Shown here one piece after another: positions 576 to 16,448 of a stretch of DNA of 21,997 nucleotides. This stretch comes from an uncultured Gemmatimonadota bacterium (lineage in GTDB: Bacteria; Gemmatimonadota; Gemmatimonadetes; Gemmatimonadales; GWC2-71-9), in NCBI GenBank assembly GCA_946887295.1, contig CAMPKP010000046.1, positions 1 through 21,997 on the forward strand, in the 5' to 3' direction. A program made the position numbers and the translations under genes. How positions within the stretch are numbered: the first letter of the stretch is position 1; each line of letters opens with the position of its first letter. The notes under the pieces were generated by a model. The model saw only the letters and a list, made by a program, of their open reading frames with translations, was not told the origin of the DNA and searched no databases.

Positions 576-1040
576 TCAGCCGGTCCCCATCGCGCTGAGC
601 GCCAGGCGCTCGGTGGACGAGAGAAGCTTCCGGGCGTTGAGGATGATGATGGTCCGGCCGGGCCTGGTGACCAGTCCCGAGATGTATGCGGCCGCCAGGC
701 CGCTCACCACGGGCCCGGGTGCGGAGATGGTACGGCTGTCCACCCGCAGCACCTCGCGGACCTCGTCCACGAGGACACCGACCCGCTGCTCACCGAGGTC
801 CACGATCATGAGGCGGGTCTCGTCCCGGATGGGAGCCTCCAGCTCGAAGCGCTTCCGCAGGTCCACCACCGGTACGGCGCCACCGCCGTACTGGACTACT
901 CCCTCCAGGAATCCGGGCGACTGCGGCAGCCGGGCCGGCGGCTCGTACCGCAGGATCCGCTGGATCTGCAGGATGTCGAACGCGAACTCCTGGAAGCCCA
1001 CCCGGAAGGTCACGAGTTGGATGTCGTCGTCCGCATTCAT
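576..1040 (-). CDS. cheW: CheW-type chemotaxis coupling protein (154 aa)
   Basis: A single CheW domain fills the 154-aa protein, the normal length. CheW bridges the CheA kinase and receptors in membrane or cytoplasmic arrays. Visible landmarks are the N-terminal strand IQLVTFRVGFQEFAFDI, the GVVQYGGGAVPVVDLRKRF stretch matching the family's G-V-x-N-x-R-G-x-x-x-P-V-x-D-L-R region (with Tyr/Gly where Asn/Leu-Arg is usual), and VGVLVDEVREVLRV near residue 95, the usual receptor/CheA contact region. It starts at ATG 1040, overlapping the previous cheW-like gene by 4 bp (ATGA). Of the three CheW proteins in the window this one looks most canonical. It carries no receiver domain, so it is not CheV. 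Confidence 0.93.
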   Translation of the reverse strand: MNADDDIQLVTFRVGFQEFAFDILQIQRILRYEPPARLPQSPGFLEGVVQYGGGAVPVVDLRKRFELEAPIRDETRLMIVDLGEQRVGVLVDEVREVLRVDSRTISAPGPVVSGLAAAYISGLVTRPGRTIIILNARKLLSSTERLALSAMGTG

Positions 1041-1462
1041 GAGGTCGCTGTCTCCACTATGCGGGCACCGATTGCCGTCAGATCGAGCAACGGAATGATG
1101 CCGTCCTCCCGCCGCACGACCGCGACGGCGAACGGCAGCGAGACGTCGGGCGGCACCGGCAGGCCGGGCTCGCGCAGCACCTCCTCGGCATCGTCCACTT
1201 CGAGGCAGATGCGGCGCCCCCCGAGCTGCACCATCACGGCGGTCCCGCCGCCCGCGGCCGGCTCCGCACGGCCCTCGAGCAGCGAGGCGAGGTGGACCAG
1301 CGGCACGATGCGGCCCCGCGAGCTCGTCACCCCCCGGACCGCCGGCTCGGTGCTCGGCACCGGATACACCGGGCCGAGGTCCAGGACCTCGATCACCTGC
1401 TCCAGCGCGAGACCGACGGTCCGGCCGCCCGCGCGCACCAGGAGCCATCCTTCGCGGCTCAT
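1037..1462 (-). CDS. cheW: divergent CheW-like coupling protein (141 aa)
   Basis: This small protein is covered by one CheW-like beta-barrel domain: [22 protein letters not shown] at the N terminus, [20 protein letters not shown] in the middle and [17 protein letters not shown] toward the C terminus. These match the strand order of CheW, but several family positions (Asn-Leu-Arg-Gly, Val-Asp-Leu-Arg) are replaced. It may therefore couple a different receptor or CheA surface, or act as an array linker. ATG 1462 overlaps the cheB stop by 4 bp (ATGA) and its stop overlaps the next cheW by 4 bp, so cheB and the two coupling proteins are probably translated together. The family call is solid; the partner is unknown. 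Confidence 0.88.
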
Positions 1463-2535
1463 GGCTTCTCCATCCTCCCCAGCTCCTCCGTCACCCGGGC
1501 CGCGATCCGCCCGACCGGCAGCACGTGGCGTGCCCCGCCCCCCTGCAGGGCCGCATTGGGCATCCCGTAGATCGTGGATGTCTCCCGGTCCTGGGCGATT
1601 CCTATCCCGCCGGCGTCGTGGATCCGCCGGAGCCCGTCGGCGCCATCGCGGCCCAGGCCGGTGAGGACCACACCGATCGCGCGGGTTCCGTAGAGCGCGG
1701 CGACACTGCGAAAGAGCGGGTCGGCCGCGGGGCGCACTCCCCAGACGCTCGGCTCACGGCCGAGCTCGATCCGGGGACCATCGGGGCCCGCGACGATGCG
1801 CATGTGGTAGTCGCCGGGCGCCACATACGCGGTGCCGGCGAGAAACGGCGTATCGTGAGCGGCTTCCACCACGCCGATGTGGCTCTGGGCCGCCAACCGC
1901 TCGGCGAGACTGCGGGTGAAGCGCGGCGGCATGTGCTGCACGATGGCGATTCCCGCGCTCAGGCCCGCGGGCAGCTGCGGCACCAGCTCCGCGAGCGCGC
2001 GCGGCCCTCCGGTGGAGGCGGCGATGGCGACGCAGAACGTCGCCCGGCCGGGCACGGAGAAGAGCGCGGCGGGCGGCAGCGCGCGGGACGGGCGGGCCAG
2101 CACCGGGAGCCGGTGGATGTCGGCGGAACGCGCGGCCCGGAGTGCGCCGAGCAGCCGGTCCGCCAGGCGGCGCGCCGACTCGTCGGTGCGCTCCTCCTCC
2201 TTGGCCACGAGATCCACGGCGCCAAGCTCCAGGGCCCGGATGGCGGCGGCCGTGCCGGGGCCGGCGTAGGAGCTCACCACGACGATGGGCCGGGGCGATT
2301 CCGACATGATGTAGCCGATCGCGCCGAGACCGTCGAGCTCGGGCATCTCCAGGTCCATCAGGACCACGTCCGGCGTGTGAGAGTGCACCTTCCGGAGCGC
2401 ATCCATGCCGTTTCGTGCCGTGGCGACGACCGAGAATTCGCCGCTGCCGTCCACCACGTCGCTGAGCAGGCGCCGAAAGAACGGGCTGTCGTCGACCACC
2501 AGGACGGTGCGGGCGTCAGATCGTGTGGATACCAT
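1459..2535 (-). CDS. cheB: CheB, chemotaxis response regulator protein-glutamate methylesterase
   Basis: This 358-aa two-domain protein has the usual CheB length. An N-terminal receiver (residues 9-125) has the acidic pair D15/D16, phospho-acceptor D61 in [13 protein letters not shown] and K112. A linker follows, then the methylesterase domain from about 165. The catalytic triad is visible: S174 in AASTGG, H201 in IVQHMPPRF and D297 in [11 protein letters not shown]. CheB removes methyl groups from (and deamidates) receptor glutamates once phosphorylated by CheA, opposing the CheR encoded just upstream. After the receiver lysine there is KEEE instead of the usual K-P. The chosen ATG gives a 20-bp overlap with cheD; it lies 10 codons before the first receiver strand, and no better-placed start is evident. 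Confidence 0.96.
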
Positions 2536-3004
2536 GCGCCACCGATCTGATCTCCAGGGTCCCCGCCGACACATCCAGTCGGACCGTCCGGCCGAAGTCT
2601 CCGCCGACCGACTCGCCCACCACCGGGATGCCCTCCGCATTGAGCACCTGCCGTGAGGCGACCACATTCCGCTCGCCCATCTGGATGGTGCCCGGAGGGG
2701 CGAGGGCGGCGAACATGCTGGCACCTCCGGCGAGCCGCGCGGTGATGCGGCGCGGGCTCGCGCCCCGGTCCGCCATCAGCTCGAGGAGCCGTGGAACCGC
2801 CGTGTGCGGCGATTTCGCGAGGTTGCCGTCGTGCTTGCTCAGCCCGGGCGATGGGAGCAGCACGTGCGCCATCCCGCCCACGCACGCCTCGGGATCGTGC
2901 TGCACGATCGCGATGCAGCTCCCCAGCCCGACGGTGATGAGGGTGTCCCCCGCCCCGCCCACCTGAAGATCCGCGACCCGGACGACGATCTCCCGAGTGC
3001 TCAT
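2516..3004 (-). CDS. cheD: CheD, chemoreceptor glutamine deamidase
   Basis: The protein is 162 aa, full length for CheD. CheD deamidates specific receptor glutamines, and in organisms with CheC it also binds CheC and modulates its phosphatase activity. The active-site residues are all present: T24, C30 in [11 protein letters not shown] and H47 in GGMAHVLLP. This is the Thr-Cys-His set known in Thermotoga CheD, offset by three residues. Further family landmarks are [12 protein letters not shown] and [19 protein letters not shown] 3004 overlaps the cheR stop by 4 bp (ATGA). A CheC gene lies about 10.5 kb upstream in the same run, so a CheC-CheD feedback pair is plausible. Confidence 0.96.
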
Positions 3005-3819
3005 GCCGGCCGCCGGTAGACCCGCTCGCGCGGATCCACGAGCACCAGGCGCTCCCGCACGGTGCCGAAGAGCGTCTCCACCTTGCCCAGCACCAGGTAC
3101 CCACCCGGCGCGAGGCTGTCGGTGAACACCTGGAACAGGCGCTCCTGCATGGGCCGGTCGAAGTAGATGAGCACGTTGCGGCACACCACCATGCGATAGT
3201 CGCGCCCGGGTGGGCGGCCGGCGCTCAGGTCCACCCGCCGCACGAAGACCCTGGCGCGGACACGCGAAACCACCTGGAGATCCGGGCCCGACGTTTCCAG
3301 GTAGCGGTCCACCAGCTCCTGCGGCATCTCGGTCAAATTCTCGGGGCGGTACCGGGCCTCTCTCGCCCGCTCGAGGCTCATGCGGTCCACGTCGGTGGCG
3401 TCCACCACGATGCGGCTCAGCTCGCCGGAGCGCCCGGTCCGGTCGAGGTGCTCCGCGGCGAGAATGGCGATGGTGTAGGCCTCCTCGCCCGACGCGCAGC
3501 CGGCGCTCCACACCCGGATCTCGCCGGTGCCGGGAGCGCAGAGGCGCGGGATCAGGTCCCGGCGCAGCAGGTTCCACGTCTCGGCGTTCCGATAAAAGCG
3601 GGTGACGTTGATGGTGAGCGTGTCGCGCAGCCGCTCGTATTCCGCGGGGCTGCGATCGAGGATCGCCTGATACTCGGCGTACGAGTGCACGCCGCAGGCA
3701 CGCATCCGCACCGCGATGCGTCGGCGGACGCACTTGTCCTTGTACGCCTCGACGGGGAGTCCGGCGCCTTTGGAGATCTTGCGCGCGAGCGCGGCGAACC
3801 CGGCATCGTCGGGGATCAC
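3001..3819 (-). CDS. cheR: CheR, chemotaxis protein-glutamate O-methyltransferase
   Basis: This 272-aa protein transfers methyl groups from S-adenosylmethionine to glutamates of chemoreceptors. The N-terminal all-helical domain (residues 5-75) contains a basic stretch, KCVRRRIAVRMRACG, typical of the receptor-facing part. Next come NVTRFYRN (usual NVTxFFRxxxxF), the SAM-binding motif VWSAGCASGEEAYTIAI (103-119), the acidic loop VVDATDVD (138-145) and the VVCRNVLIYFD motif (211-221). The start is GTG 3819, overlapping the previous stop in a GTGA quartet; this gives the expected N terminus with no long extension. No TPR is fused to this CheR, although a TPR-rich protein is encoded directly before it. 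Confidence 0.96.
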   Translation of the reverse strand: MIPDDAGFAALARKISKGAGLPVEAYKDKCVRRRIAVRMRACGVHSYAEYQAILDRSPAEYERLRDTLTINVTRFYRNAETWNLLRRDLIPRLCAPGTGEIRVWSAGCASGEEAYTIAILAAEHLDRTGRSGELSRIVVDATDVDRMSLERAREARYRPENLTEMPQELVDRYLETSGPDLQVVSRVRARVFVRRVDLSAGRPPGRDYRMVVCRNVLIYFDRPMQERLFQVFTDSLAPGGYLVLGKVETLFGTVRERLVLVDPRERVYRRPA

Positions 3820-5432
3820 CGGCCGACGTCCAGCATCTCGAGGTTGGCGCGGGCCAGCTCGTGGGCGGGGTTGAGCTCCGTCGCCCGGCGCCAGCTCTCG
3901 CGCGCGCGCTCGTGGTCGCGGCGCTTGTAGGCGATGTTGCCGAGCTTGAAGTAGAGATCGTCGCCCAGATCGGGCGCGAGCTTCGCCGCGCGGTCGTAGG
4001 CCTCGCGCGCCTCGTCGAAACGCCCGTTCCGATAGAGAATGTCTGCGAGATTCTTGGAGATCTGGGGGAGCGACGGATCCTCGGCCAGCGCGGCGCGCAG
4101 CATGGTCTCGGCGCCGGCGACGTCCCCGGCGAACTCGCGCAGCACGGCCAGGTTGTTCCGCAGGACGGCACTCCCCGGGTGCGCCGCGACCCCTTCCTCC
4201 GCGGCCTTCAGGGCGCCCTCGGCATCGTCGAGTCCCGCGCTGGCGAGGGTGGCCGCCCAGTACCAGAGCGGCGGCGCGGCCTTGGCGCCCGCGAGCTCGC
4301 GGGCGCGGGCCAGCCGCCCCTGGGCCACCTGGTACTCGCCCCGCTTGAGCGCGACGACGCCCCAGCCCAGCATCACCCGGGCGTCGTCCCGCGCGCGGCT
4401 CGCGGCATCGCCGTACGCGGCATCCGCCTCGTCCAGCCGGCCGAGGCGCTCGAGGGCGACCCCGAGGTTGTGCAGCGCGGGCGCGCGGGGCCCGCCCTTC
4501 TCGAGGGCCTGACGGAAGGCGGCCACGGCCTCCTCCCAGCGAGCCTGCCGGAGCGCGATGAGGCCGAGGAAAAAGGGCGCGCTCGCGTCCGCCGCCCGGA
4601 GATCGGCGACGCGGCGGAACTCGCGCAGGGCCTCGTCCAGCATGGCCGCCTTGTAGAAGGCGATGCCGAGATTCCGGTGCTCGTCCACCCGGCTCTCGTT
4701 GACCCGGGGCGCGGCCGCCGCCGAGGTGCCCACGCGGTGCGCGAAGCCGGCGGTGATGAGGCCGAAGAGCGCCTTGCCTGCGTCGAACTCGACCAGGCCG
4801 CTCTCCTCGACCACCTGCGCCACGTCCCGGGTTCCGTCCAGGAGCGGCACCAGCCGCCGCTGCTCGTCCGACAGCTCCGGGGCGGACTCGCCGATGTGGG
4901 TGCCGTCCACCGAGAAGATCAGGTCGAACGACGGGATCTTCTTCTCGATGAGGCTCCACTCGTCCACCCGCCGCGCGCCCTCGAGCAGCAGGTACTCCGG
5001 ATTGATGCGGACCAGAAAGTCCTCGCGCTCGGGCCGCACTCCGGCCTCGAAATTGAAGGTTCCCGAGCTCCAGGTGAACAGGTAGTAGACCGCCTCCTCG
5101 ATCTGGACCCGCATGTAGCGCTCCAGCTCCTCGCGGGGGAGGAATCCGAGCTGGACCAGGATCTCACCCAGCTTCAGCTCGCGATCGGCCTCCTGGCGCT
5201 CGACCGCCGCCCGCAGCTGCTCGGCCGTGATCCGGCCGCTCCGGGTCAGGATGTCGCCCAGGCGGTCGCGGCGGTTGACGATCGAGGCGTAGACGATCTG
5301 CCCCTCGTCGAAGTAGATCGTGCCGAAGTTGTGCCGGTCGGCGAGCGCGAGGCATCCGGTCCGCCGCCCGAGGAAGAGCAGCTGGATGACGTCGGGGAGG
5401 CTCGCCTCCTTGAGGCTTCCCTTGATCGCCAT
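3816..5432 (-). CDS. DUF4388 (PATAN) domain protein with C-terminal TPR array
   Basis: This is a 538-aa cytoplasmic protein. Residues 1-130 form a DUF4388/PATAN domain: the IKGSLKEASLPDVIQLL start, GRRTGCLALADR, GTIYFDEGQIVYA, then ITAEQLRAAVERQ, LGEILVQLGFLPREELE and a closing IEEAVYYLFTWSSGTFNFE. A helical segment follows (145-235, GARRVDEWSLIEKKIPS and a winged-helix-like DGTRDVAQVVEESGLVEF). From about 250 to 533 there are TPR units (LGIAFYKAAMLDEALREFRRV and others). PATAN domains are adaptor modules in prokaryotic signalling and are known next to receivers in cyanobacteria. ATG 5432 shares one base with the preceding stop (TGATG). The N-terminal half is clearly paralogous to the 348-aa protein encoded at 9766-10812. 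No catalytic motif is present; the specific role is unknown. Confidence 0.88.
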   Translation of the reverse strand: MAIKGSLKEASLPDVIQLLFLGRRTGCLALADRHNFGTIYFDEGQIVYASIVNRRDRLGDILTRSGRITAEQLRAAVERQEADRELKLGEILVQLGFLPREELERYMRVQIEEAVYYLFTWSSGTFNFEAGVRPEREDFLVRINPEYLLLEGARRVDEWSLIEKKIPSFDLIFSVDGTHIGESAPELSDEQRRLVPLLDGTRDVAQVVEESGLVEFDAGKALFGLITAGFAHRVGTSAAAAPRVNESRVDEHRNLGIAFYKAAMLDEALREFRRVADLRAADASAPFFLGLIALRQARWEEAVAAFRQALEKGGPRAPALHNLGVALERLGRLDEADAAYGDAASRARDDARVMLGWGVVALKRGEYQVAQGRLARARELAGAKAAPPLWYWAATLASAGLDDAEGALKAAEEGVAAHPGSAVLRNNLAVLREFAGDVAGAETMLRAALAEDPSLPQISKNLADILYRNGRFDEAREAYDRAAKLAPDLGDDLYFKLGNIAYKRRDHERARESWRRATELNPAHELARANLEMLDVGR

Positions 5433-7459
5433 CAGCGCCAGTCCTCGAGCAGGCGGTCGGCGAGCTCGGGCCATTCCCAGACCATCTTCTCGCGGCTGCG
5501 GGCGCCCCCGGCCGTCGGAGCCACGATGCCGCTGGAGCGCTGGGCCGGCGGCCGCGGGGTGTGCGCGGCGGCCGGAGCCTCCGCCGGCGGGCCGGGCGGC
5601 AGGCCATCCAGCACCTCGCGCGCGAGCGCGACCGACGGCGGAGCGTTGCGGGCCTCCGCGGCGTTGAGGACCCGCTGCAACTGGGCGACGAGCATGCGGA
5701 CCGAGTCCACCGCTCGCGAGGCCATGTGATCCACCACCGCCGGGTCGGCGGAGCCGAGCTTCGCCGCGAGCTCCCGCGCGACCACCCGCTCGCGGATCTC
5801 CCGGTCGGGGGCGGCCAGATCCACCACGAGGCCGCCCTCGAGCCGGGTGCGAAGCCGCGGCTCGAGGCCATGGATCTCCGCGAGCGGCACGGCCGAGGTG
5901 AAGATCATCTGGCGTTCCGACTCGAGCAGCATGTTGTACAGGAGGAACAGCTCGTCCTGGGTCCGATCGGTCTCCGCGACCAGATGCACGTCGTCGAGGA
6001 GGAAGGCGGAGATCCGGCGGTAGCGCGAGCGCCAGATGCCGACGGCGTCGCGGTCGATCGCCGCGATCAGCTCGCCGGTGTACTCCGGGCCGCTCAGGCA
6101 CGCGACCGGCGCCCTCGCCCCTTCGGCCAGCGCGTTCCCGACTGCGTGAAGCAGGTGCGTCTTGCCGGTGCCGCCGGCGCCGACGATGACGAGCGGGTTA
6201 TAGCGGCCGCCCGGATCCTGCACCACCGTCCGCGCGGCCTCGAGCGCGACCTTCGCCGACGGACCCTCGATCCACTCCTCCAGCCGCCAGAGCGGCGAGG
6301 GCGCCGAGGGGGCGACCGCACCTTCGCGCGCGCGCGCGAGGAGCGACTCCGCCGCGGCGAGGTCGCCCGGGTCGCGGAACGCGGCGGACCCCACCAGGTC
6401 GGCCGCCAGCTCGGCGGTCTCCGCCTCCATGTCGCGAAGCCGCTGGACGTCGCACTCGAAGTCCCGGAGCGCCTGCGTCGGGTCGGGGACGACCTCCTGA
6501 TCCAGCAGCTTCTGGAGCCGCCCGGTGCGGTACCCCTCTCCCTCCCAGCGGAGGATCGCCGCGCCGATCTGGGTGCGCCACGCGTCCACCTGCTGCGCCA
6601 CCGTGGCCGAGATCTCGCTGAGGAAATCGGAGAACTCGTCGGGTGCCGCAGCCGGACTCGGCCCCGGCGGCGGGACCGGCGGGGCCGGCTCGTCGCCCGC
6701 CGACTGCGCGGCGATACCATCGGTCCCCCCCCTCGCCCCCAGCGGCCCGCCGATCATCGCCTTCGCCTGCTCCGGGTCGATCGGCTTGTCGCTCACCGCC
6801 TGAAAGGCGACCAGCCGGTTGAGGGCCCCCAGCAGCTCGCGCACGTTGTCGATGTCGAGGCCGGCGATCGCCTCGAGCACTCCGTCGGCGAACGACGCGC
6901 GCCGCTCCTCCGCCTTTCGGCGGAGAATCGCGACCCGGGTCTCGTAGTCGGGAGCGGAGACGTCGATGATGAGTCCGCCCGCGAAGCGGCGGATGAGGCG
7001 CTCGTCCAGGGCCTCGATCTCGGCCGGAGGCCGATCGCTGGTGAGGACGATCTGACGGTTGGTGGTCTGCAGCGCGTCGGTGAGCCGCAGCAGCTCGGCC
7101 TGCATCTCGCGCCGGTGGGTCAGGAACTGCACGTCGTCCACCAGGAGGAGATCGACGTCGAGAAAGCGCTTGCGATACGCCTCGCCGTGCCCCGCCGCGA
7201 TCGCGGCGTGGAACGCCTCGACGAACTCGTCGAGGGTCAGGTACTCGACCTGGAGGTTGGGATCGATCGCCCGGGCGGCGTGGCCCAGGCCCATCAGCAG
7301 GTGGGTCTTGCCAAGGCCCGGGCGCGCATAGATGAAGAGCGGGTTGTACACCGTGCCCGGCGACTCGGCCACGGCCTTCGCCGCCGTGACGGCCAGGCGG
7401 TTCGCCGAGCCGACCACGAAGGTGTCGAAGCGGTAGAGCGGGTTGAGCGTGACCGTCAT
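5432..7459 (-). CDS. tandem DnaA-like AAA+ ATPase without a DnaA-box-binding domain
   Basis: This 675-aa protein has two DnaA-type AAA+ modules in one chain. Module 1 (residues 8-235): FDTFVVGSANRLA, Walker A RPGLGKTHLL (K51), Walker B LLLVDDVQF (D108/D109), sensor 1 LTSDRPP, box VII-like arginine R158, sensor 2 arginine R207 in NVRELLGALNRL. Module 2 (390-605): Walker A GAGGTGKTHLL (K433), Walker B AFLLDDVHLV (D489/D490), sensor 1 FTSAVPL, RLRTRLEGG (R539), sensor 2 R588 in SVRMLV. Between them lie a Pro/Ala linker (255-273) and a helical segment with a WEGEGY motif. The tail is low complexity and ends in a Trp-rich WEWPELADRLLEDWR. DnaA domain IV is absent, so it is unlikely to be the replication initiator. 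It overlaps the MglA-type gene by 4 bp. By analogy with other DnaA-like ATPases it may act as an assembly switch; function unknown. Confidence 0.85.
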   Translation of the reverse strand: MTVTLNPLYRFDTFVVGSANRLAVTAAKAVAESPGTVYNPLFIYARPGLGKTHLLMGLGHAARAIDPNLQVEYLTLDEFVEAFHAAIAAGHGEAYRKRFLDVDLLLVDDVQFLTHRREMQAELLRLTDALQTTNRQIVLTSDRPPAEIEALDERLIRRFAGGLIIDVSAPDYETRVAILRRKAEERRASFADGVLEAIAGLDIDNVRELLGALNRLVAFQAVSDKPIDPEQAKAMIGGPLGARGGTDGIAAQSAGDEPAPPVPPPGPSPAAAPDEFSDFLSEISATVAQQVDAWRTQIGAAILRWEGEGYRTGRLQKLLDQEVVPDPTQALRDFECDVQRLRDMEAETAELAADLVGSAAFRDPGDLAAAESLLARAREGAVAPSAPSPLWRLEEWIEGPSAKVALEAARTVVQDPGGRYNPLVIVGAGGTGKTHLLHAVGNALAEGARAPVACLSGPEYTGELIAAIDRDAVGIWRSRYRRISAFLLDDVHLVAETDRTQDELFLLYNMLLESERQMIFTSAVPLAEIHGLEPRLRTRLEGGLVVDLAAPDREIRERVVARELAAKLGSADPAVVDHMASRAVDSVRMLVAQLQRVLNAAEARNAPPSVALAREVLDGLPPGPPAEAPAAAHTPRPPAQRSSGIVAPTAGGARSREKMVWEWPELADRLLEDWR

Positions 7460-8062: not shown

Positions 8063-8524
8063 CTACCGCCCGAAGAGAGCTTTGAGACTGGAGTCCAGCT
8101 CGTGCTCGAAGTTCTCCGGCAGCGTCACGGCCGCGGGCTGCTCCCGCGGCGCCGCCGAGGCCAGCTGCTGCACCATCTGGTCGAAGAAGAGCTGCACGAT
8201 CCCCACCGAGGTTTCCGGGCCGAAGACGACCAGGCCGATCCACCGGCCGCGCGGAGTGGCGAAGCCGGCGAGCAGGCAGCTCTGCCGGGCCCCGTGATGC
8301 ACCAGCGCCTCGAACCGCGAGGCACCCATCAGCCGGGCCAGCTCCTCGGTCGAGGCGCCGATCCCGGCGCCGAGCGCGGCGGCGGTCATGACGTCGAGGG
8401 AGCGGCTGAACCCGTGCTGCGCCACCACCTGTCCCGACGACGTCATCAGCAGCGTGAGCCGCGCCGACGATTCGTCGAGGAAAGTCTGCAGGGGCACCTC
8501 GACCCAGGGCTCGAGTGCGCGCAT
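8063..8524 (-). CDS. roadblock/LC7-type, MglB-like protein (153 aa)
   Basis: A roadblock/LC7 fold is the best reading: residues 8-60 hold an amphipathic helix (PLQTFLDESSARLTLLM), a strand with TSSGQVVAQHG and a helix rich in Ala/Gly (DVMTAAALGAGIGASTEELARLMG). They are followed by the strands ALVHHGARQSCLLAGF and RWIGLVVFG and a closing helix GIVQLFFDQMVQQLA. A C-terminal tail (125-153) may reach across a partner as in MglB. ATG 8524 shares one base with the upstream stop (TGATG), and the downstream MglA-type gene begins 4 nt after its TAG stop. By position it is the strongest candidate for the cognate MglB/GAP. Sequence alone does not prove GAP activity. Confidence 0.8.
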   Translation of the reverse strand: MRALEPWVEVPLQTFLDESSARLTLLMTSSGQVVAQHGFSRSLDVMTAAALGAGIGASTEELARLMGASRFEALVHHGARQSCLLAGFATPRGRWIGLVVFGPETSVGIVQLFFDQMVQQLASAAPREQPAAVTLPENFEHELDSSLKALFGR

Positions 8525-8871
8525 CAGTCCAGCCGGCTCGCGGCGTCCACCATCTCCAGGCGGGCGAGCCCCACGTTGGCATCCGGCCCCGTGACCGCGA
8601 TCAGCACCAGAGCACCGGGGGAGGGGGCCGCCAGGATCGAGCCCCGCTCGGCGCGGACCTGGACGAACGCCGGGGGGCGGCGGCCGGCGCCATCGGCCGT
8701 GCGTACCAGCCTCCCGACCAGACTCCCCGCCAGCGCCGCCGCGGCCCGGCCGTCCACACCGTCCATGAGCTGCTCGGCGACCACCAGGCCGTCCTCGGCG
8801 GAAGCGATCAATGCACCGCGCACTCCGGGAACCCGGGTCACCCGGTCGAGAACGCCCTGGACGCCGGTCAC
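8524..8871 (-). CDS. roadblock/LC7 domain protein (115 aa)
   Basis: This short protein consists of one roadblock/LC7 domain: helix VTGVQGVLDRVTRVPGVRG, strand ALIASAEDGLVVAEQL, helix GRAAAALAGSLVGRLVRTAD, strand FVQVRAERGSILAAPS, strand LVLIAVTGPDANVG and a final helix GLARLEMVDAASRL. This order and length fit the family. The start is GTG 8871, which overlaps the previous stop as GTGA; in-frame sequence further upstream is alternate-frame sequence inside the preceding gene and has no roadblock features. Roadblock proteins dimerise and regulate Ras-like GTPases. It probably homodimerises or pairs with the other roadblock units of the cluster to regulate the MglA-type GTPase. Confidence 0.82.
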   Translation of the reverse strand: MTGVQGVLDRVTRVPGVRGALIASAEDGLVVAEQLMDGVDGRAAAALAGSLVGRLVRTADGAGRRPPAFVQVRAERGSILAAPSPGALVLIAVTGPDANVGLARLEMVDAASRLD

Positions 8872-9773
8872 TGGACCCGCTCCAGCCAGGACTTCGCCGC
8901 GCGAGCGGCGCGTTCGGCCACCAGCGCCACCCGCGCCATGGGGAGCGAAGGCTCCCTGGCGGCGAGCAGGACGGTCTCGCCGGTGGGACGGACCAGCACG
9001 AGGTGCGCATCGGGACACTCGACCGTGATGGTCTGCCAGGCCCCCAGCTCCAGCAGCCGGGTGGCTCGGCTCGCCTCGCGCGAGACACCGGCGAGCTGCG
9101 CGGCGACGCGGTCGCCGGTCTCCTCGCCGTCCGGCGCAGGCAGTGAGCCCGCCAGCCTGAGACCATTGGCGTCCACCAGCACGAGCCCGTGGCCGCCCTC
9201 CAGCTGCGCGAAGGGAGAGCCGGCGTCGGGCAGCTCGGCGGGGCCCGTGCTCGGAGCGGCAAGCACCGGCTCCGGATCGCTGGAAGCGCCCGGTGCCGGT
9301 TCCGGAGCGCTCGCCGGCGACTCGGCAGCCGCGACCGGTGTGGACTCGCTCGGCACCCGCGGCGTCATTCCGCGGGACTCACGGCGCACCCGGGCGAGCG
9401 CCTGCGCGATGGAGGGGTCGTCCGGATCCGCCTCGGCCGCGCGCTGCAGGTGCTCGATCGCCGCCGCGGCATCGCCCGCCCTGAAGTAGAGGAAGGCGAT
9501 TCCCTTCAGGGCAGCGGTGCGCATCGGGTCGAGCCTGAGCGCGTCGGCCCAGGCGTCGAAGGCGCCGGCCAGGTCGCCCTGGTCGCTGAGGATGCGGGCC
9601 ATGAGGTCGTGCGCGTCGGCCAGGCCGGGATACCTGCCCAGGCCGCCGCGAGCGACCTTGCACGCGGCCTCGAGCTGGCCCCTGCGCCGGAGCGCTTCGG
9701 CGAGCTCCAGGAACGCCAGACTCGTCGGCTCCTCCGCCAGGCGCGTCGTGAGGGTACGGATGTCGTCACTCAC
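8868..9773 (-). CDS. TPR protein with C-terminal roadblock/LC7-like domain
   Basis: This 301-aa protein has three parts. Residues 1-125 are three to four TPR units (LAFLELAEALRRRGQLEAACKV, AHDLMARILSDQGDLAGAFDAW, ALKGIAFLYFRAGDAAAAIEHL). Residues 130-185 are an Ala/Pro/Ser/Glu linker. Residues 186-300 resemble a roadblock domain (HGLVLVDANGLRLAGSL, RVAAQLAGVSREASRATRLLEL, HLVLVRPTGETVLLAA, a closing helix LVAERAARAAKSWLERV). It starts at GTG 9773, 8 bp inside the preceding gene, with a GGAG about 9 nt upstream. The likely role is to tether a GTPase-regulating fold to a TPR partner. The TPR call is firm; the roadblock call is good but rests on strand pattern and Gly-Leu turns. Confidence 0.82.
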   Translation of the reverse strand: MSDDIRTLTTRLAEEPTSLAFLELAEALRRRGQLEAACKVARGGLGRYPGLADAHDLMARILSDQGDLAGAFDAWADALRLDPMRTAALKGIAFLYFRAGDAAAAIEHLQRAAEADPDDPSIAQALARVRRESRGMTPRVPSESTPVAAAESPASAPEPAPGASSDPEPVLAAPSTGPAELPDAGSPFAQLEGGHGLVLVDANGLRLAGSLPAPDGEETGDRVAAQLAGVSREASRATRLLELGAWQTITVECPDAHLVLVRPTGETVLLAAREPSLPMARVALVAERAARAAKSWLERVQ

Positions 9774-10812
9774 CGTGTCGCTCCAACTCCTTCACCAGGG
9801 TTTCCACGGCGCGGCGCATGCGCTCCACGGCCGGGGCCTCCGCTTCCTCGCCCGGCGACCGGGGACCGAGCCGGCTCCACGCGTGCCAGGTCTCCAGCGC
9901 CCGCGCGAAATGTCCCATGGCCGCCTGGCACACGCCGAGCAGACGCCGCGCCTCCGGCATGAGCGGATCCCGGCGCAGCACCTCTTCCAGCGCTCCGGCC
10001 GCGATGTCGTACGAGCCCTGCGCCAGCGCCTCGCGCGCCGGGACGAGCAGCGCGGCGGGATCCCTTCCGGGCTCAGGCTCCTGCCCCGGGCGTGCGGGAT
10101 CGCCCAGCGCCACCACGCCGGCCGCGGTGAGCCCATAGACCGTGCGCGCCACCTCGAACTCCGAGCGGCCGAGCACTTCGGCGAGCGCGCGCAAGTCGCG
10201 CTCGCCGTCCACCGCCGCGAGCACTTCCCACTCGAAGGGCACGAGGTCGAGCGGGGGCGCGGCTCCGTTCTGATCGGGCAGCCGGGGCACCAGGCCCAGG
10301 TGCGACACCTTCGAGCCGATGCGCGACCACTCGTCGAGACGACGGGCGCCCTCCATCAGCAGGGCCTCGGTGGGCGAGCGCACCGGCGCGTCCACGGCCG
10401 CCTGGCAGGGCGAGCCCTCCTCGAACCGGAAGTAGCCCTCGGTCCAGGCGAGGAGCTCGAACACCGCCTCCTCGATCTGCGCCTTCACCTGGCGCTCGAG
10501 CTCGCGCCGCGAGATGGCACCCAGGCTCAACAGGATGTCGCCCAGGCGACGGGTGTCCCCCGCGTTCTGCAGCGCCCGACCGCGATGGAGCTGCTCGGCG
10601 GTGATCTTGCCGACCCGCACGAGGCGCCCGCCGATCGGCTGCGGGTCGCTGCCGAGCGACGCGGCGACCACCCCGCCGCGGTCGAAGCACACGGTCGCGG
10701 CCGTCTGCCGCAGCTCGGAGGTCACGCGCAGCACCCCGCTCTTCCGGCCGAGGTCGAGCAGCTGGAAGACGTCCTGGATGTGCAGGTCCTTGAGGGGTCC
10801 CTCGAGCGCCAC
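9766..10812 (-). CDS. DUF4388 (PATAN) domain protein with short TPR tail
   Basis: The 348-aa protein begins with a DUF4388/PATAN domain (1-135): LEGPLKDLHIQDVFQLLDLGRKSGVLRV, a strand TAATVCFDRGGVVAAS, then ITAEQLHRGRALQ, LGDILLSLGAISRRELE and IEEAVFELLAWTEGYFRFEEG. A segment with GARRLDEWSRIGSKVSHLG and a winged-helix-like DGERDLRALAEVLGRSEFEVA follows (150-245), then about two TPR units (265-345). The order matches the 538-aa protein at 3816-5432, so the two are paralogues. The start is GTG 10812, 3 nt after the upstream stop, with a GGGGTGA ribosome-binding-like stretch. It has no enzymatic motif and is probably an adaptor within the GTPase/chemosensory system. Confidence 0.86.
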   Translation of the reverse strand: MALEGPLKDLHIQDVFQLLDLGRKSGVLRVTSELRQTAATVCFDRGGVVAASLGSDPQPIGGRLVRVGKITAEQLHRGRALQNAGDTRRLGDILLSLGAISRRELERQVKAQIEEAVFELLAWTEGYFRFEEGSPCQAAVDAPVRSPTEALLMEGARRLDEWSRIGSKVSHLGLVPRLPDQNGAAPPLDLVPFEWEVLAAVDGERDLRALAEVLGRSEFEVARTVYGLTAAGVVALGDPARPGQEPEPGRDPAALLVPAREALAQGSYDIAAGALEEVLRRDPLMPEARRLLGVCQAAMGHFARALETWHAWSRLGPRSPGEEAEAPAVERMRRAVETLVKELERHGE

Positions 10813-10815
10813 CGA

Positions 10816-13527
10816 TCACCCCGCCGAGGCTGCGAAGATGTGCTGGAGATCCCGGGCGGATCGCGCCCGGCTCCGGGCCTGCGCGGCGTAGGGACCGGAC
10901 GGGTCGAGCTGCACGACCCGCTCCCAGGCCTCGACCGCCTGGTCGAAGTGGCGCTGGCGGGCGAGCGCGGCACCCTGGTGGTAGAGCGCGCCGGCGTGGT
11001 CCGGGTCGAAGCGAAGCACCCGTGCGAAGGCCTCGAGCGCCTGGGTCGTGCGGCCGTCGTCGAGCAGCGCGCGACCGAGGGCGGTGAGTGCCTCGAGCTC
11101 GTAGGGGTCGGTCTCCAGCAGGCGAATCAGGACCGCGGCCGCAGCCCGCGGCGACTCCAGCCGCCCCTTGAGGTCGGCGAGCGCGAGCGCCGCGGCGCTG
11201 TAGGTCGGGAGCAGGTCGAGCGCGCGCTCATACGCCGCGCGCGCCGCCGCCCAGTTGCCGCGCTCCTCCTCGAGGCCGCCGAGCTCGTACCAGACCCGCA
11301 CCAGCGATGGATCGAGCTGGAGCGCGGCGTTGAAGGCCGCGAGCGCCGCCGGACGGTCGCCCAGGCGGGCGGAGACCTGGGCCTGAAGGTGGAGCAGGTC
11401 CGAGCGCCCGGGGGCCAGCGTCTGCGCCTCGCGGATGCAGTCGAGGGCGCCGAGCGCGTCGTTGACCGCCAGGCGCACCCGGGCCCGGGCGACGAGCACC
11501 TCGATGTCGCCCCGGACCCGCTGCGACAGATCGTCGGCCAGGGGCGCGGCCTCGGAGGCCCAGCCCAGCGCCAGCAGCGCGCGGATCTCACCCAGGGTCG
11601 CGTCGGGATCGTCGGGCGCGGCGGCCCGCGCCTCCCGGTAGCGCTCCAGCGCCTCGCCGTAGAGTCCGCGCTTCGCGAAGACGTCGCCGAGCAGCACCGC
11701 GGCCGCCGCCCTGGGGGCGCCGCGGGCCGTCGCTCTGGAGACCTCGGCCAGCGCGAGGTCGAGCAGTCCCTTGCCGATGTAGTCGCGCGCCAGGTCGAGC
11801 GCGTCGGCCGGAGCGGCCCTGGACGGCGCCTGCTGCGCGGTCGGCGTGAGCTCCTCGAAGAGGCGGTCGAGCACCGGCGCGTCGAACTCGAACTCACCCG
11901 CGAGCTCGTCCCCGCCGGCGGCTTCCGCGGCGAGCTCCGGCGCGATGGCGATCGTGGGGTCCTCGTACTGCAGGTCGATCGTCAGCGAGAACTTCTGGGG
12001 CACGTAGAGCGGCTCGAGCTCCAGGGCCCGGCGGGTCTCCCGCAGCGCGCCGTCGAAGTCGCCGAGCTGGCTCAGCACGAAGCTGAGGTTGTAGTGCGCC
12101 GCCGCGAAGGCCGCATCGGCATCCACCGCCCGGCCGAAAGCGTTGCGCGCGTCCTCGTAGCGCCGAAGCTCCATCAGCACCAGCCCCACGCCGTTCCACG
12201 CGACCGCGCTTCCCGGCTGCTCCGCGAGCGCCTGCTGATACTCCTCGAGGGCGGCGCGGAACTGCCGGCGCTGGAAGGAGAGCAGGCCGAGATTCAGCCG
12301 GGCCGCCAGCAGCGGCCGGTCGGCGCCCAGCGCCTGGCGGAACGCCGCCACGGCAGCGTCGGGCTTCGCCTCGTGGGCCCGCACCACGCCGAGGTTGTTC
12401 CACGCGAGCTGGTAGGCGGAATCGATGCCCACCGCGCGCTCGTAGGAGACCACCGCCTCGGCCCTCCGTCCCGCCTGGTGGAGGCAGACCCCGCGCTCGT
12501 TCCACAGCTTGGGAGAATCCGGATGCTCGCGGACCAGCCCCTCGTACAGCTCGAGCGCCGCGCCCAGCTCCCGGCGGAGGAGATGCACCTCGGCCATGGC
12601 CTGGAGATTGAGCCGCCGGTCCTCGCCCACCTCGAGCGCGAGGCGGTACTCCCGCAGCGCCTCCTGGTGATAGCCCTTCTGCCGGAGCGCGAGACCCAGG
12701 TTGAAATGCGCCAGTGCGGCGCCCGCGACCGGCTGGGGGACGGCGATCCCGCGTCCGCGGGCCGCGCCGGGGCCGGTGCCGTTGGGCTCCGGCGCGCCGG
12801 GCTGCTGCCGGTCGAGGGAGAGGTTGGCCTGCGCCTTGGCCAGGGTGGGGTTCAGCGCGATGGCGCGCCGGGTGGCCTCGCGGGCCGCCTCGTGCTGCCC
12901 CATGTCGCCGTACACGAAGGCCAGGAGGTAATGCGCCTCGGCGTAGTCGGGGTTGCGGGCGATCGCCTCACGGAGCGCGCCGAGGGCCGCGTCGTTGAGG
13001 CCGCGATTGTAGAAGACCTCGCCGCTGTAGAAGCGGGCGACGGCGCTGGAGGGGTCGGCGGCGCAGGCGCGCTCCAGCCAGGCGCTGGCCGCGTCGAGCT
13101 CGCCGCGGGCCTTCTCGGCGAGCCCCAGCTGGAGCATCGCGGGGACGTCGTGCGGGTGCCAGGCGAGCAGCCCCTCGAACTCGGCGATGGCCTCGACGTA
13201 GCGGCCGAGCGCGGCGTAGGCGCGCGCCAGCTCCCACCGGCTCTCGCGGTCCTCGGGCCGACGGCGCACACCTTCCCGCAGCTCGGTGATCCGGCGGTCG
13301 TAGTGGCCGCTCTCCCGATAGGCGATGTCCAGGTTGTCCTGCGCCACCTGCATCTTGGGATCGAGCTCGAGCGCCTTCACGAACTCGGCGATGGCCTCCT
13401 CCACCAGGCCTTTCTGGTGGTAGAGCACGCCGAGATTGTTGTGCGCGCCCGCATCGGACGGATCGATGCGGCCGGCGAAGGAACGGAGAACGGCGAGATC
13501 GCGCTCGGAGAGCACGGGGCCCGGCAT
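10816..13527 (-). CDS. large TPR repeat protein (903 aa)
   Basis: Nearly the whole chain is tetratricopeptide repeats, roughly twenty or more, starting at NNLGVLYHQKGLVEEAIAEF (about 30) and ending in GALYHQGAALARQRHFDQAV. Two non-repeat breaks divide it: a Gly/Pro/Asn stretch near 245-265 and an acidic, Pro/Ala-rich stretch near 530-580 (EFEFDAPVLDRLFEEL). Each TPR block may be a separate superhelix. There is no signal peptide, so it is predicted cytoplasmic. No catalytic domain is visible. ATG 13527 lies 4 nt after the cheC stop; the first 25 residues precede the repeats. In this context it is probably the largest scaffold of the locus. A long open frame on the opposite strand is explained by codon bias. 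Confidence 0.9.
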   Translation of the reverse strand: MPGPVLSERDLAVLRSFAGRIDPSDAGAHNNLGVLYHQKGLVEEAIAEFVKALELDPKMQVAQDNLDIAYRESGHYDRRITELREGVRRRPEDRESRWELARAYAALGRYVEAIAEFEGLLAWHPHDVPAMLQLGLAEKARGELDAASAWLERACAADPSSAVARFYSGEVFYNRGLNDAALGALREAIARNPDYAEAHYLLAFVYGDMGQHEAAREATRRAIALNPTLAKAQANLSLDRQQPGAPEPNGTGPGAARGRGIAVPQPVAGAALAHFNLGLALRQKGYHQEALREYRLALEVGEDRRLNLQAMAEVHLLRRELGAALELYEGLVREHPDSPKLWNERGVCLHQAGRRAEAVVSYERAVGIDSAYQLAWNNLGVVRAHEAKPDAAVAAFRQALGADRPLLAARLNLGLLSFQRRQFRAALEEYQQALAEQPGSAVAWNGVGLVLMELRRYEDARNAFGRAVDADAAFAAAHYNLSFVLSQLGDFDGALRETRRALELEPLYVPQKFSLTIDLQYEDPTIAIAPELAAEAAGGDELAGEFEFDAPVLDRLFEELTPTAQQAPSRAAPADALDLARDYIGKGLLDLALAEVSRATARGAPRAAAAVLLGDVFAKRGLYGEALERYREARAAAPDDPDATLGEIRALLALGWASEAAPLADDLSQRVRGDIEVLVARARVRLAVNDALGALDCIREAQTLAPGRSDLLHLQAQVSARLGDRPAALAAFNAALQLDPSLVRVWYELGGLEEERGNWAAARAAYERALDLLPTYSAAALALADLKGRLESPRAAAAVLIRLLETDPYELEALTALGRALLDDGRTTQALEAFARVLRFDPDHAGALYHQGAALARQRHFDQAVEAWERVVQLDPSGPYAAQARSRARSARDLQHIFAASAG

Positions 13528-13531
13528 CGGC

Positions 13532-14149
13532 TCAGGGCAGGCGGATGGCGTCGAAGATGGCCCGCAGCGACGGCATGTCGGGCAGGAGCAGGAAATGACC
13601 GCGCAGGGGCTCGGTTCCCTCGACCCGGAAGGAGGTGTCGACGCAGAAGACGAAGTCGCGATCGTGACCGAAGTTCAGATAGGCGGTGGTCAGCACCGCC
13701 GCGCTCAGATCCACCACCAGACTGGGCACCGACGGCACCAGCATCATGCCCATGAAATCGCTGAGCGCGTTGAGATAGGCGCTCGCGAGAATGTTGCCGG
13801 CCTCCTTGATGCCCGACTGCTCCATGGCCCCGAACTCCACGGTCGTCCCGGGCTCGCGCCGGAGCAGGATATCGCAGAGGGTGCGGGCGGAGCCTTCCGG
13901 GAACATGACCAGCGTTCGACCGGTGAGGTCGCCCATCATGTGCATCATGACCGCGGCGATGACGGTGTCGGGGGCGCCGACCAGATCCGTCACCTCCTCC
14001 AGCGCGCGGATGTTGACCTCCGGCACGGCGATCATGATCGTGCGGTTGGTCATCTGGGACAGCGCGGTCGCGGCGTGTCCGGCGCCGATGTTGGCCACCT
14101 CACGCAGGGCGTCGAGCTGGAGCTCCTTGAGGTCCCGCACGTCTTCCAT
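13532..14149 (-). CDS. cheC: CheC-family CheY-P phosphatase
   Basis: The 205-aa protein is a full-length CheC. Both active-site signatures of the family, (S/D)-x3-E-x2-N-x22-P, are intact: D13-E17-N20-P43 in the first half and S112-E116-N119-P142 in the second. CheC dephosphorylates CheY-P and partners with CheD (encoded at 2516-3004), which in well-studied species raises its activity. The pseudo-symmetric repeat is visible as DALREVANIGAGHAATAL versus SGIKEAGNILASAYLNAL. It has no N-terminal FliM-type CheY-binding peptide and no FliM C-terminal part, so FliY/FliM is excluded. The start codon follows a very strong ribosome-binding site that overlaps the cheA stop. Confidence 0.95.
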   Translation of the reverse strand: MEDVRDLKELQLDALREVANIGAGHAATALSQMTNRTIMIAVPEVNIRALEEVTDLVGAPDTVIAAVMMHMMGDLTGRTLVMFPEGSARTLCDILLRREPGTTVEFGAMEQSGIKEAGNILASAYLNALSDFMGMMLVPSVPSLVVDLSAAVLTTAYLNFGHDRDFVFCVDTSFRVEGTEPLRGHFLLLPDMPSLRAIFDAIRLP

Positions 14150-14150
14150 G

Positions 14151-14158
14151 CCTCCTCC
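14151..14158 (-). promoter_or_regulatory. strong Shine-Dalgarno of cheC overlapping the cheA stop
   Basis: On the minus strand the cheA TAG shares its final G with a GGAGGAGG stretch, one base before ATG 14149. It is among the two strongest ribosome-binding sites in the window and fixes the cheC start. It suggests cheC has its own high initiation rate as well as coupling. Confidence 0.85.
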
Positions 14159-16017
14159 TACACCAGCGCGGCGGCGTCGAGGATGAGCGCCGGTGATCCG
14201 TCCGCCAGAATCGTCGCGCCACCGACGTAGGGCGGCATCCCGCGGGGCGCGTCGAATGGCTCTACCACGATGTCCTGCTGCCCCATCAGCGCGTCGACCA
14301 CCAGGGCCGCGCGCCGATCACCGACCTCCAGGATGACGGTCGGCGCGCGGGGCGGCGCCGGCCGGGGCTGGTTCCGCACCAGCTCGCGGAGGTGAACCGT
14401 GGGGATCACCTGGTCCCGCACCAGCAGCGCCTCGCGGTCGCGGACCGCCGTCACCGAGCGGGGGTCGAACTCCACCGTCTCCGCCACATAGGCGAGCGGC
14501 ACCGCGTAGCACTCGCCGGCGGCCGTCGCCAGCAGGGCCCGCACGATGGCGAGGGTAAGCGGCACCCGGATCGTGAACGTGGTCCCCCGCCCCATCTCGC
14601 TGCGGACCTCGATGGTTCCGCCGAGGGCCCGCACCCGCGTCACCACCACGTCCACGCCGACGCCACGGCCGGATACGCCGCTCACCGCCTGGGCGGTGCT
14701 GAAGCCGGGCCGGGCGAGCACCCGAAGCAGGAGATCGTCGGAGAGCCCGTCGGCGCCCGTCTCGACCAGGCCCTCGCGGCGCGCCTTCGCCATGATCGCC
14801 TGCCGGTCGATGCCGCGGCCGTCGTCGCTCAGCCGGAGGGCGACGTAGTTCCGCTCCCGGCTGGCCGAGATCAGGATGCGGCCTTCCTCGTTCTTCCCGG
14901 CCGCCGCGCGCTGCTCCGGCGTCTCGATGCCGTGATCGGCCGCGTTGCGGATCAGGTGCAGCAGCGGCTGGCCGATCTCGTCGAGGATGGAGCGGTCGAG
15001 CTCGATCTCGTCGCCCTCGGCGTCGAAGCGGATCCGCTTGCCGAGGTCGCGGGCCAGGTCACGGACCAGCCGGGGAAAGCGCTCCAGCACTTCGCCCACA
15101 GGCGTCATCCGCGCGGCGATGACTTCGGCCTGGATCTCGGAGACCAGTCGCGCGATCCGGTCGCTCACCTCGTCCAGCGCCGGCTCCGGCGCCGCGGCCG
15201 CGATCACGCCGAGCCGGTTCTTCGCCACCACCAGCTCGCCCACCTGCTTCATCAGCGCGTCGAGCCGGCCGAGCTCCACCCGGATCTGCCGGGACTGACC
15301 GCCCGTGGCGGCGGCCTGATCGTCGTCGAAGCGCACGGCATCGACGTCGCCCGCGCCGCGGAGCACATCCACGACCCGCTCGTCGCTGGCCGCACTGGCG
15401 AGCCGGAAGTGGAAGCGGCCGTCGAAATCGTGGCTGTCGAACTGCGCCAGCGGGGGCCGCAGCGCGCTCACCACCCCGAGCGACTCGGCGCGCCGGACGA
15501 CCAGCGCCGCCCGGGCACCGCGCATGATGGCGTCGCGCCGGAGGGTCACCTGCACCGGCCGGGCCCGCCCGTCACCGGCCCCGAGATCGCCGTTCCGGGG
15601 AGGCGAGGCGACCCCCGTCGCCGTCGGCGCGACCGCAGCGAGCCCCGCCGCCGCGGCGTCGAGATCCTCCGCCAGCTTCCGGTCCGCGACCGGCTCCGAG
15701 CCGATCACCGCCCCTTCGACCGACGAGGCCAGCGCGTCCACCGAGCGGAAGAGCAGCTGGAACACCGAGGGATCGGGCGTGACGGAGCGCTGGCGCAGCG
15801 CGTCGAGCAGGTTCTCCAGACGGTGGGCCAGATCGGCCGTCCCGGTGTACCCCATCGTCGCGCCCATGCCCTTGATCGTATGGATCGCGCGGAACAGTCC
15901 GCCGACCTGCCGGGTGGCGGAGGGCTCGCGCTCCCATTCAAGGAGAAGCTGATTGCAGGCGCTCAGGTGCTCCCGGCTCTCGGTCAGGAACAGCGCGGCG
16001 TACTTCGAGACGTCCAT
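14158..16017 (-). CDS. cheA: CheA chemotaxis histidine kinase
   Basis: This 619-aa kinase takes signals from CheW-coupled receptors and phosphorylates CheY and CheB. Domain order: P1 Hpt (1-105) with phospho-acceptor H46 in RAIHTIKGMGATMGY; a linker and a degenerate P2-like segment (155-235); P3 dimerisation helices (247-310, LGRLDALMKQVGELVVAKNRL); P4 ATPase with N box LIRNAADHGIE (355-365), G1 DDGRGID (398-404), G2 SGRGVGVDVV (449-458) and RGTTFTIRVPLTLAI; and P5 CheW-like (490-619). All catalytic boxes are intact. N box AADHGIE carries Ala-Ala where Ser-Ile/Leu is common. It begins 3 nt after the cheY stop, typical of a cheY-cheA pair. It has no C-terminal receiver, unlike the Frz/Pil hybrid CheA proteins. 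Confidence 0.97.
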   Translation of the reverse strand: MDVSKYAALFLTESREHLSACNQLLLEWEREPSATRQVGGLFRAIHTIKGMGATMGYTGTADLAHRLENLLDALRQRSVTPDPSVFQLLFRSVDALASSVEGAVIGSEPVADRKLAEDLDAAAAGLAAVAPTATGVASPPRNGDLGAGDGRARPVQVTLRRDAIMRGARAALVVRRAESLGVVSALRPPLAQFDSHDFDGRFHFRLASAASDERVVDVLRGAGDVDAVRFDDDQAAATGGQSRQIRVELGRLDALMKQVGELVVAKNRLGVIAAAAPEPALDEVSDRIARLVSEIQAEVIAARMTPVGEVLERFPRLVRDLARDLGKRIRFDAEGDEIELDRSILDEIGQPLLHLIRNAADHGIETPEQRAAAGKNEEGRILISASRERNYVALRLSDDGRGIDRQAIMAKARREGLVETGADGLSDDLLLRVLARPGFSTAQAVSGVSGRGVGVDVVVTRVRALGGTIEVRSEMGRGTTFTIRVPLTLAIVRALLATAAGECYAVPLAYVAETVEFDPRSVTAVRDREALLVRDQVIPTVHLRELVRNQPRPAPPRAPTVILEVGDRRAALVVDALMGQQDIVVEPFDAPRGMPPYVGGATILADGSPALILDAAALV

Positions 16018-16020
16018 GCG

Positions 16021-16383
16021 TCAGCCCAGGACGCGCTGCACCGCCTCGAGCACGCGAGAGGGCTGGAAGGGTTTGACCACGAAGTCCTTGGCCCCCGCCT
16101 GGATGGCCTCGACCACCAGGGCCTGCTGCCCCATCGCGCTGCACATCAAGATCTTCGCGTCGGGATCGGTCTTGCAGATCTCCCGCACCGCCTCGATGCC
16201 CCCCATGTCGGGCATCACGATGTCCATGGTGACGAGATCGGGCTTGAGCTGGCGGTACTTGTCGACCGCCTGCACGCCGGACTCGGCCTCGCCCACGACC
16301 TCGAACCCGGCCTGGGTGAGGATGTCGCTGATCATCGTGCGCATGAAGATGGCATCGTCGCAGACGAGGACGGTGTGACTCAC
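16021..16383 (-). CDS. cheY: CheY, single-domain chemotaxis response regulator
   Basis: This 120-aa receiver-only protein is phosphorylated by CheA. Key residues: acidic pair D9/D10 in VLVCDDAIFMR, phospho-acceptor D54 in VTMDIVMPDMGG, switch Ser S82 in ILMCSAMGQQ and K104 in DFVVKPFQ. No output domain is attached. The start is GTG 16383, with GGAGGAG 5 nt upstream; reading further upstream gives a non-receiver sequence that runs antiparallel-like through cheW in another frame, so the longer open frame is rejected. Its output target is not in the window. The dedicated phosphatase is probably CheC at 13532-14149. Confidence 0.95.
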   Translation of the reverse strand: MSHTVLVCDDAIFMRTMISDILTQAGFEVVGEAESGVQAVDKYRQLKPDLVTMDIVMPDMGGIEAVREICKTDPDAKILMCSAMGQQALVVEAIQAGAKDFVVKPFQPSRVLEAVQRVLG

Positions 16384-16448
16384 GACAGCTCCTCCGGGGT
16401 ACAGGACAGCGGGCGGCGGGGGGCGGCTGCTGCGGTGTGCTCCCCCGT
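16384..16448 (-). other. 65-bp cheW-cheY spacer, longest intergenic gap in the window
   Basis: This is the only gap over 8 bp. It is C/G-rich; a weak CGGGGG/CCCCCG pairing with a long loop is possible, but no U tract follows, so it is not an intrinsic terminator. I see no clear -35/-10 pair. It does contain the cheY ribosome-binding site. If an internal promoter exists between the housekeeping genes and the che genes it would be here or within the cheW/rluD coding sequence. Confidence 0.6.
16389..16395 (-). promoter_or_regulatory. strong Shine-Dalgarno deciding the GTG start of cheY
   Basis: The minus strand reads GGAGGAG, then a 5-nt spacer, then GTG 16383. This supports GTG instead of any upstream codon as the start of the 120-aa CheY. 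Confidence 0.82.

Follow-up and report, generated by a model that had tools for sequence, protein, structure and literature searches.

The stretch of DNA analysed here, 21,997 nucleotides on contig CAMPKP010000046.1 of an uncultured Gemmatimonadota bacterium (assembly GCA_946887295.1; referred to below as the window), contains on its reverse strand a gene at positions 5432 to 7459, which codes for a protein of 675 amino acids counted from an ATG start codon. In this protein, two AAA+ modules of the DnaA type are fused in one chain. The DnaA-like protein is a member of a real and widespread family, and by the tests made here it is a DnaA-clade ATPase which is neither DnaA nor Hda. Its constant neighbour is a protein combining DUF4388 with tetratricopeptide repeats (TPRs), and not the GTPase MglA. 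The explanation that we prefer, with a probability of roughly 0.45, is that the DnaA-like protein is the ATP-switch subunit of a surface-signalling system, in which cyclic di-GMP (c-di-GMP), MglA and a Che pathway are connected around the DUF4388-TPR protein with its MshEN motif as a hub, and which perhaps acts on type IV pili. No description of a tandem DnaA-like family was found in the literature searched.

Two DnaA-type modules in one chain

Two stretches of the open reading frame (ORF) match the Pfam family Bac_DnaA, with an E-value of 1e-89 for the whole protein. When the modules were cut apart, Bac_DnaA was the best of all models listed for each of them, with E-values of 1.8e-52 for residues 1-245 and 3e-36 for the C-terminal piece. 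This bore out the fusion of two DnaA-like modules described in a first-pass annotation of the window, and an origin of the second module from a different AAA+ clade was rejected. Module 1 comprises residues 1-242 (6734..7459, on the reverse strand like all features of the window given below) and has an intact ATP site, with Walker A K51, Walker B D108/D109, arginine finger R158 and sensor 2 R207. It is followed by a helical middle domain (residues 275-385; 6305..6637), for which no convincing match was obtained in Pfam, NCBIfam or PDB. Module 2 (residues 386-622; 5594..6304) contains Walker A K433, Walker B D489/D490, arginine finger R539 and sensor 2 R588, and the chain ends in a free tail (residues 655-675; 5435..5497) with the pattern E-[KR]-x-[VI]-W-x-W-P-x4-R-x2-E. 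An AlphaFold2 model has a mean predicted local distance difference test score (pLDDT) of 88.4, with values above 90 for most of both modules.

The modules share the AAA+ fold and motifs with domain III of canonical bacterial DnaA, and module 1 is 45% identical to domain III of Bacillus subtilis DnaA over 233 columns. In contrast to canonical DnaA, the chain contains two modules, to which the helical middle domain and the C-terminal tail are added. Neither DnaA_N (domain I) nor Bac_DnaA_C (domain IV) was identified with Pfam in the whole protein or in the cut pieces, while both were present in all eight canonical DnaA proteins of relatives tested. The DnaA equivalog model TIGR00362, scored on the whole protein and not on single modules, reached 442.1 against a cut-off of 343.9 with two matched stretches, the best of which covers positions 103-335 of the 437 of the profile. 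Several database entries name the DnaA-like protein "chromosomal replication initiator protein", perhaps because the two partial matches sum to a value above this cut-off. Hda likewise is a DnaA-type AAA+ protein devoid of the helix-turn-helix domain; however, the protein described here is a tandem encoded in a signalling operon, and with 148.5 bits it remained below the cut-off of 194.8 of the Hda model TIGR03420. A tree built from 118 selected rows separates two clades, one of module 2 and the other of module 1 with the single-module proteins, each having a value of 99 in the Shimodaira-Hasegawa-like approximate likelihood ratio test (SH-aLRT).

A search for close relatives in a species-genome collection identified 23 loci, all with Gemmatimonadota titles. 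For the phylum, 150 Gemmatimonadota genomes were sampled. The DUF4388-TPR neighbour was found in 101 of them; in 89 of these all or part of the DnaA-like gene is present at the locus, in 11 it is absent, and in the remaining one (G156) the locus is cut by a contig end. Neither of the two genes was found in 49 genomes. The profile of the helical domain alone matched in 86 genomes, by coordinates at the DnaA-like gene, with one borderline extra match in G143. Of the 89 genomes, this profile missed three: G071, in which the helical domain is absent, and G119 and G144, where contig ends intervene. Since the gene is at its locus in 89 of the 150 genomes, an assembly error was rejected as the source of the fusion. 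With Bac_DnaA as the best match of module 2, no domain IV found in the chain and the same form recurring in relatives, the fusion has thus held up.

A canonical dnaA gene elsewhere in the genome was also found in most of the genomes checked for it. When 17 genomes were searched with Bac_DnaA, matches over the cut-off were obtained in all of them, 13 clearly having a canonical dnaA as a separate gene. G005 contains a further partial match, and G007, G010 and G011 gave the two tandem modules alone, which was attributed to incomplete bins. In G014, a genome on a single contig, the positions are 776 kb for the DnaA-like gene and 2,084 kb for canonical dnaA; the earlier suggestion of a link to the replication origin or the cell cycle gained no support.

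Unequal conservation of the two modules

The motifs were compared in 82 proteins, the one of the window and those of 81 genomes. In module 1, the Walker A lysine is kept in all 82 proteins, the second Walker B aspartate in 79, the arginine finger in 69 and the sensor 2 arginine in 71. In module 2, the Walker A lysine is kept in 64 of the 82, the arginine finger in 72 of the 75 proteins having that region, and sensor 2 in 48 to 54, varying with the alignment. Eleven copies of module 2 are devoid of the Walker A lysine, nine of them in one clade and two in G148 and G065 (Lys to Arg), and the arginine finger is kept in all 11, as if it completed the site of module 1. The second tryptophan of the C-terminal tail is present in 81 of the 82 proteins, being lost in G066; its distance from the C-terminal end is 12 residues in 80. 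Judged by these residues, module 1 and module 2 are not equivalent. The most constant parts of the protein appear to be the tail and the binding of ATP by module 1, and module 2 resembles a helper offering an arginine finger.

Seven proteins (from G043, G121, G118, G066, G094, G071 and G049) do not contain module 2. By inspection, they occupy five places on the tree of the neighbour; in the module tree they group with module 1, several of them on long branches.

The DUF4388-TPR neighbour and the signalling operon

In the window, the mglA frame (7456-8058) ends with ATGA across the start of the DnaA-like gene, so that the adjoining of the two genes noted earlier is confirmed by a 4-bp overlap. 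The stop codon of the DnaA-like gene overlaps the start of the DUF4388-TPR gene (3816..5432) by one base (TGATG). At 12 of the 89 loci no MglA gene is present (G148, G113, G154, G089, G147, G149, G071, G106, G083, G129, G130 and G114, the locus of G147 being damaged), and the DnaA-like and DUF4388-TPR genes are still together. An MglA match was found somewhere in the genome for these 12, with G071 excepted, although G071 is listed with one at 1.2e-63. Eleven of the 12 are included in the neighbour tree, on which three changes, gains or losses, are needed. MglA was therefore rejected as an obligate partner. For two loci (L016 and L017), no che match was left in the locus, the rest of which is present. 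The first-pass annotation had considered a covalent DnaA-like dimer serving the GTPase and chemosensory system. A pseudo-dimer which is widespread and encoded in the operon was indeed found, but its constant neighbour is the DUF4388-TPR protein instead of MglA, its modules are not equivalent, and one of them is missing in the seven proteins named above.

We take DUF4388 to be the PatA N-terminal (PATAN) family, and in this lies the likeness to cyanobacterial regulators of pili such as PixE. In contrast to these regulators, DUF4388 here contains an MshEN insert, is joined to a series of TPRs and is accompanied by an AAA+ protein. The insert is an MshEN-type c-di-GMP motif at residues 57-110 of the neighbour (5103..5264), which scored 46.1 bits with the NCBIfam model in the window and 50.6 bits in locus L067, above the cut-off of 38. 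In PMC5013675, MshEN is described as a c-di-GMP receptor with two 24-residue RLG...Q half-motifs. The neighbour shares both half-motifs; in contrast to known MshEN, its motif sits inside DUF4388 and the spacer between the halves has 6 residues instead of 5. In the window, its second half begins with KLG.

The DnaA-like gene is absent from one clade of nine genomes on the tree, and in addition from G108, which lies on a contig end, and from G146, which is rearranged. In this clade the MshEN insert of the neighbour is absent in nine of nine genomes, and it is present in 88 of 88 others, among them G156, whose locus is cut by the contig end; no MshEN match was listed for L076 and L078, two loci of this clade. 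The TPRs at the end of the neighbour (roughly residues 485-538; 3819..3980) are likewise absent in nine of nine, and also in G017, which is cut by a contig end. The clade mostly retains the remaining genes of the operon. A docking surface lost from the N-terminus of DUF4388 was considered for the alignment starting near residue 108 and was rejected, the missing MshEN insert being the cause.

A frame of 1002 amino acids in L066 (1606-4608, reverse strand) was examined as a fusion of the DnaA-like protein with its neighbour and was rejected. Its TPR part is read in a different frame (ORF 2622-3464), and neither module 2 nor DUF4388 is present, which indicates a deletion or a bad join. In L083 (9559-10799, genome G146) the locus has collapsed, a partial cheY-like sequence entering the middle of the DUF4388-TPR gene. 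In one clade (L060, L061, L065 and L067), the DnaA-like and DUF4388-TPR genes are the only ones left of those queried, beside ileS and an rluD-like gene; a weak response-regulator match was obtained downstream in L065-L067.

In the window, operon status was inferred from gene order and overlaps. The genes are transcribed in the order ileS, a dksA/traR-type gene, lspA, an rluD-like gene, cheW (16449..16886), cheY (16021..16398; a CheY-type receiver with its start codon not fixed), cheA (14158..16017), a cheC/cheX-family gene (13532..14149) and the gene for a TPR protein of 903 amino acids (10816..13527). These are followed by a second DUF4388-TPR gene (9766..10812), a gene for a TPR-Roadblock protein (8868..9773), with its Roadblock domain above the cut-off, a gene for a Roadblock/MglB-like protein (8063..8551; start not fixed), the gene for the MglA-type small GTPase and the DnaA-like gene. 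Downstream of the latter lie the constant DUF4388-TPR neighbour, cheR (3001..3819), cheD (2516..3004), cheB (1459..2565; start codon not fixed), two further cheW genes (576..1462) and a TPR gene. ileS, the rluD-like gene and the last TPR gene were named by reading alone. The Roadblock/MglB-like protein remained below the cut-offs, with 19.2 bits for Robl_LC7 (cut-off 23) and 37 bits for the MglB model (200), and an MshEN-like motif in the second DUF4388 protein reached 32.3 bits, under the cut-off of 38. With genes for an MglA-type GTPase, Roadblock and DUF4388 together, the window contains a signalling operon of the MglA/Roadblock/DUF4388 kind.

A putative ATP switch and the alternatives

In the mechanism that we propose, a DnaA-clade AAA+ ATPase would have departed from replication and become the switch of a signalling complex. 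ATP would be bound by module 1, onto which module 2 of the same chain would fold to contribute its arginine finger in cis. Binding and hydrolysis of ATP would close and open the pair of modules, and this movement would shift the helical domain and thereby expose or hide the WxWP tail, which may dock on the TPRs at the C-terminal end of the DUF4388-TPR hub. By its MshEN insert, this hub would report c-di-GMP, and it would be coupled to MglA and the Che pathway, with control of type IV pili as the likely output. We infer the partner and the output of the protein, as well as physical contact, dependence on c-di-GMP and the cis arginine finger, from gene association and residue conservation.

The closest known system on the side of MglA is that of Myxococcus xanthus, with which the window has an MglA-type GTPase, Roadblock proteins, TPR proteins and a Che-like pathway in common. 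In M. xanthus, MglA-GTP acts on the localisation of PilB via the TPR protein SgmX, as described in PMC7519303 and PMC11580455. DnaA, by contrast, is not mentioned in the two MglA papers searched for this word, PMC4316618 and PMC11580455. PilB1 of cyanobacteria is bound by PATAN regulators (PMC9090330), and some mglA genes have PATAN genes nearby (PMC4316618). Matches to the PilT family averaged 3.76 in the genomes with the DnaA-like gene (n = 89), 2.18 in those with the DUF4388-TPR gene alone (n = 11) and 1.16 in those with neither (n = 49), in counts which follow clades and are uncorrected for kinship; they fit, without proving, an output to type IV pili. Of the 89 genomes containing the gene, 54 gave no FlhA match, which makes a flagellar output unlikely to be general.

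Several observations weigh against the proposed switch. The predicted template modelling score (pTM) of the AlphaFold2 model is 0.53, which leaves the arrangement of the modules undecided. A cis arginine finger is not universal, since module 2 is gone in seven proteins, and in G117, G143 and G046 module 2 is present and the finger is absent. Nine of the 11 copies of module 2 without the Walker A lysine cluster in one clade. The tail is degenerate in G066, which moreover contains the gene without a PilT match at the threshold used, and the helical domain is missing in G071. The joint absence of the gene, the MshEN insert and the last TPRs amounts to a single event on a single branch (SH-aLRT 99; one independent pair), and is therefore suggestive and not a statistical proof. 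Among the neighbours, a key MshEN residue, the glycine of the second motif, is changed to alanine in nine of 88. The PilT counts follow clades, and FlhA likewise is more frequent in genomes with the gene (35 of 89) than in those with neither gene (6 of 49), so that the association is not specific for pili. Finally, module 2 may keep contact positions for single-stranded DNA, for which a switch acting purely on proteins would have no use.

The most extensive version of this proposal, to which we give only tentative credence, would have a DnaA paralogue converted once, in a large part of the phylum, to a self-contained AAA+ pseudo-dimer of an ATP sensor and a built-in arginine-finger activator. 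Gated by c-di-GMP, it would act as a switch on a PATAN/MshEN-TPR hub, which would integrate MglA polarity with the Che pathway and drive type IV pili.

The alternative that survives best, though unlikely, is that the ATP cycle is driven by module 1 and module 2 serves to bind single-stranded nucleic acid, for instance when DNA taken up by type IV pili is handled. V156, K188, R190 and T191 of Aquifex DnaA are presumably the residues contacting single-stranded DNA. At these positions, module 2 has Arg at R190 in 70 of 75 proteins (R499 in the window), Ile or Val at V156 in 67 and Lys at K188 in 51, and the copies without the Walker A lysine keep Arg at R190 and Ile at V156 in 11 of 11. In module 1 the positions are mostly changed, with Glu at position 190 in 63 of 82. 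On this basis nucleic-acid binding by module 2 is possible, and of the earlier claim that a DNA-binding domain is missing, the part concerning domain IV stands, while the general statement is weakened. However, the canonical DnaA proteins of the phylum have Met at position 190 in 11 of 13, and the Arg of module 2 may thus serve a different contact; the window has Thr at position 188, and seven proteins have no module 2 at all.

A loader or remodeller of the DnaC/IstB type with an oligomeric ATPase as its target, for instance the pilus motor PilB/PilT, is improbable; the model of the IS21 helper (IstB-type) gave 87.5 against a cut-off of 200 and PRK07952 (DnaC) 29.2 against 357. An Hda-like replication regulator, which would co-assemble with canonical DnaA or cap it and couple initiation to surface signalling, is the least probable alternative: the DnaA type of both modules, the mostly conserved arginine fingers and the separate DnaA clear in 13 of 17 genomes would suit it, but the gene tracks a signalling gene, lies far from dnaA in G014 and falls below the Hda cut-off, one clade without it keeps most of the operon, and 49 of the 150 genomes contain neither gene of the pair.

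To our knowledge, DnaA-clade ATPases are known for loading or controlling the replication machinery and as helpers in transposition. If the ATP switch around the DUF4388-TPR hub is correct, the protein would be a DnaA relative with a role beyond DNA replication and transposition, and the ATPase switch of an initiator could be redeployed to cell behaviour. Because truncated forms occur naturally as a series, the mechanism is open to direct tests. For Gemmatimonadota genomes, automatic annotation can mislead where this DnaA-like protein is named a replication initiator.

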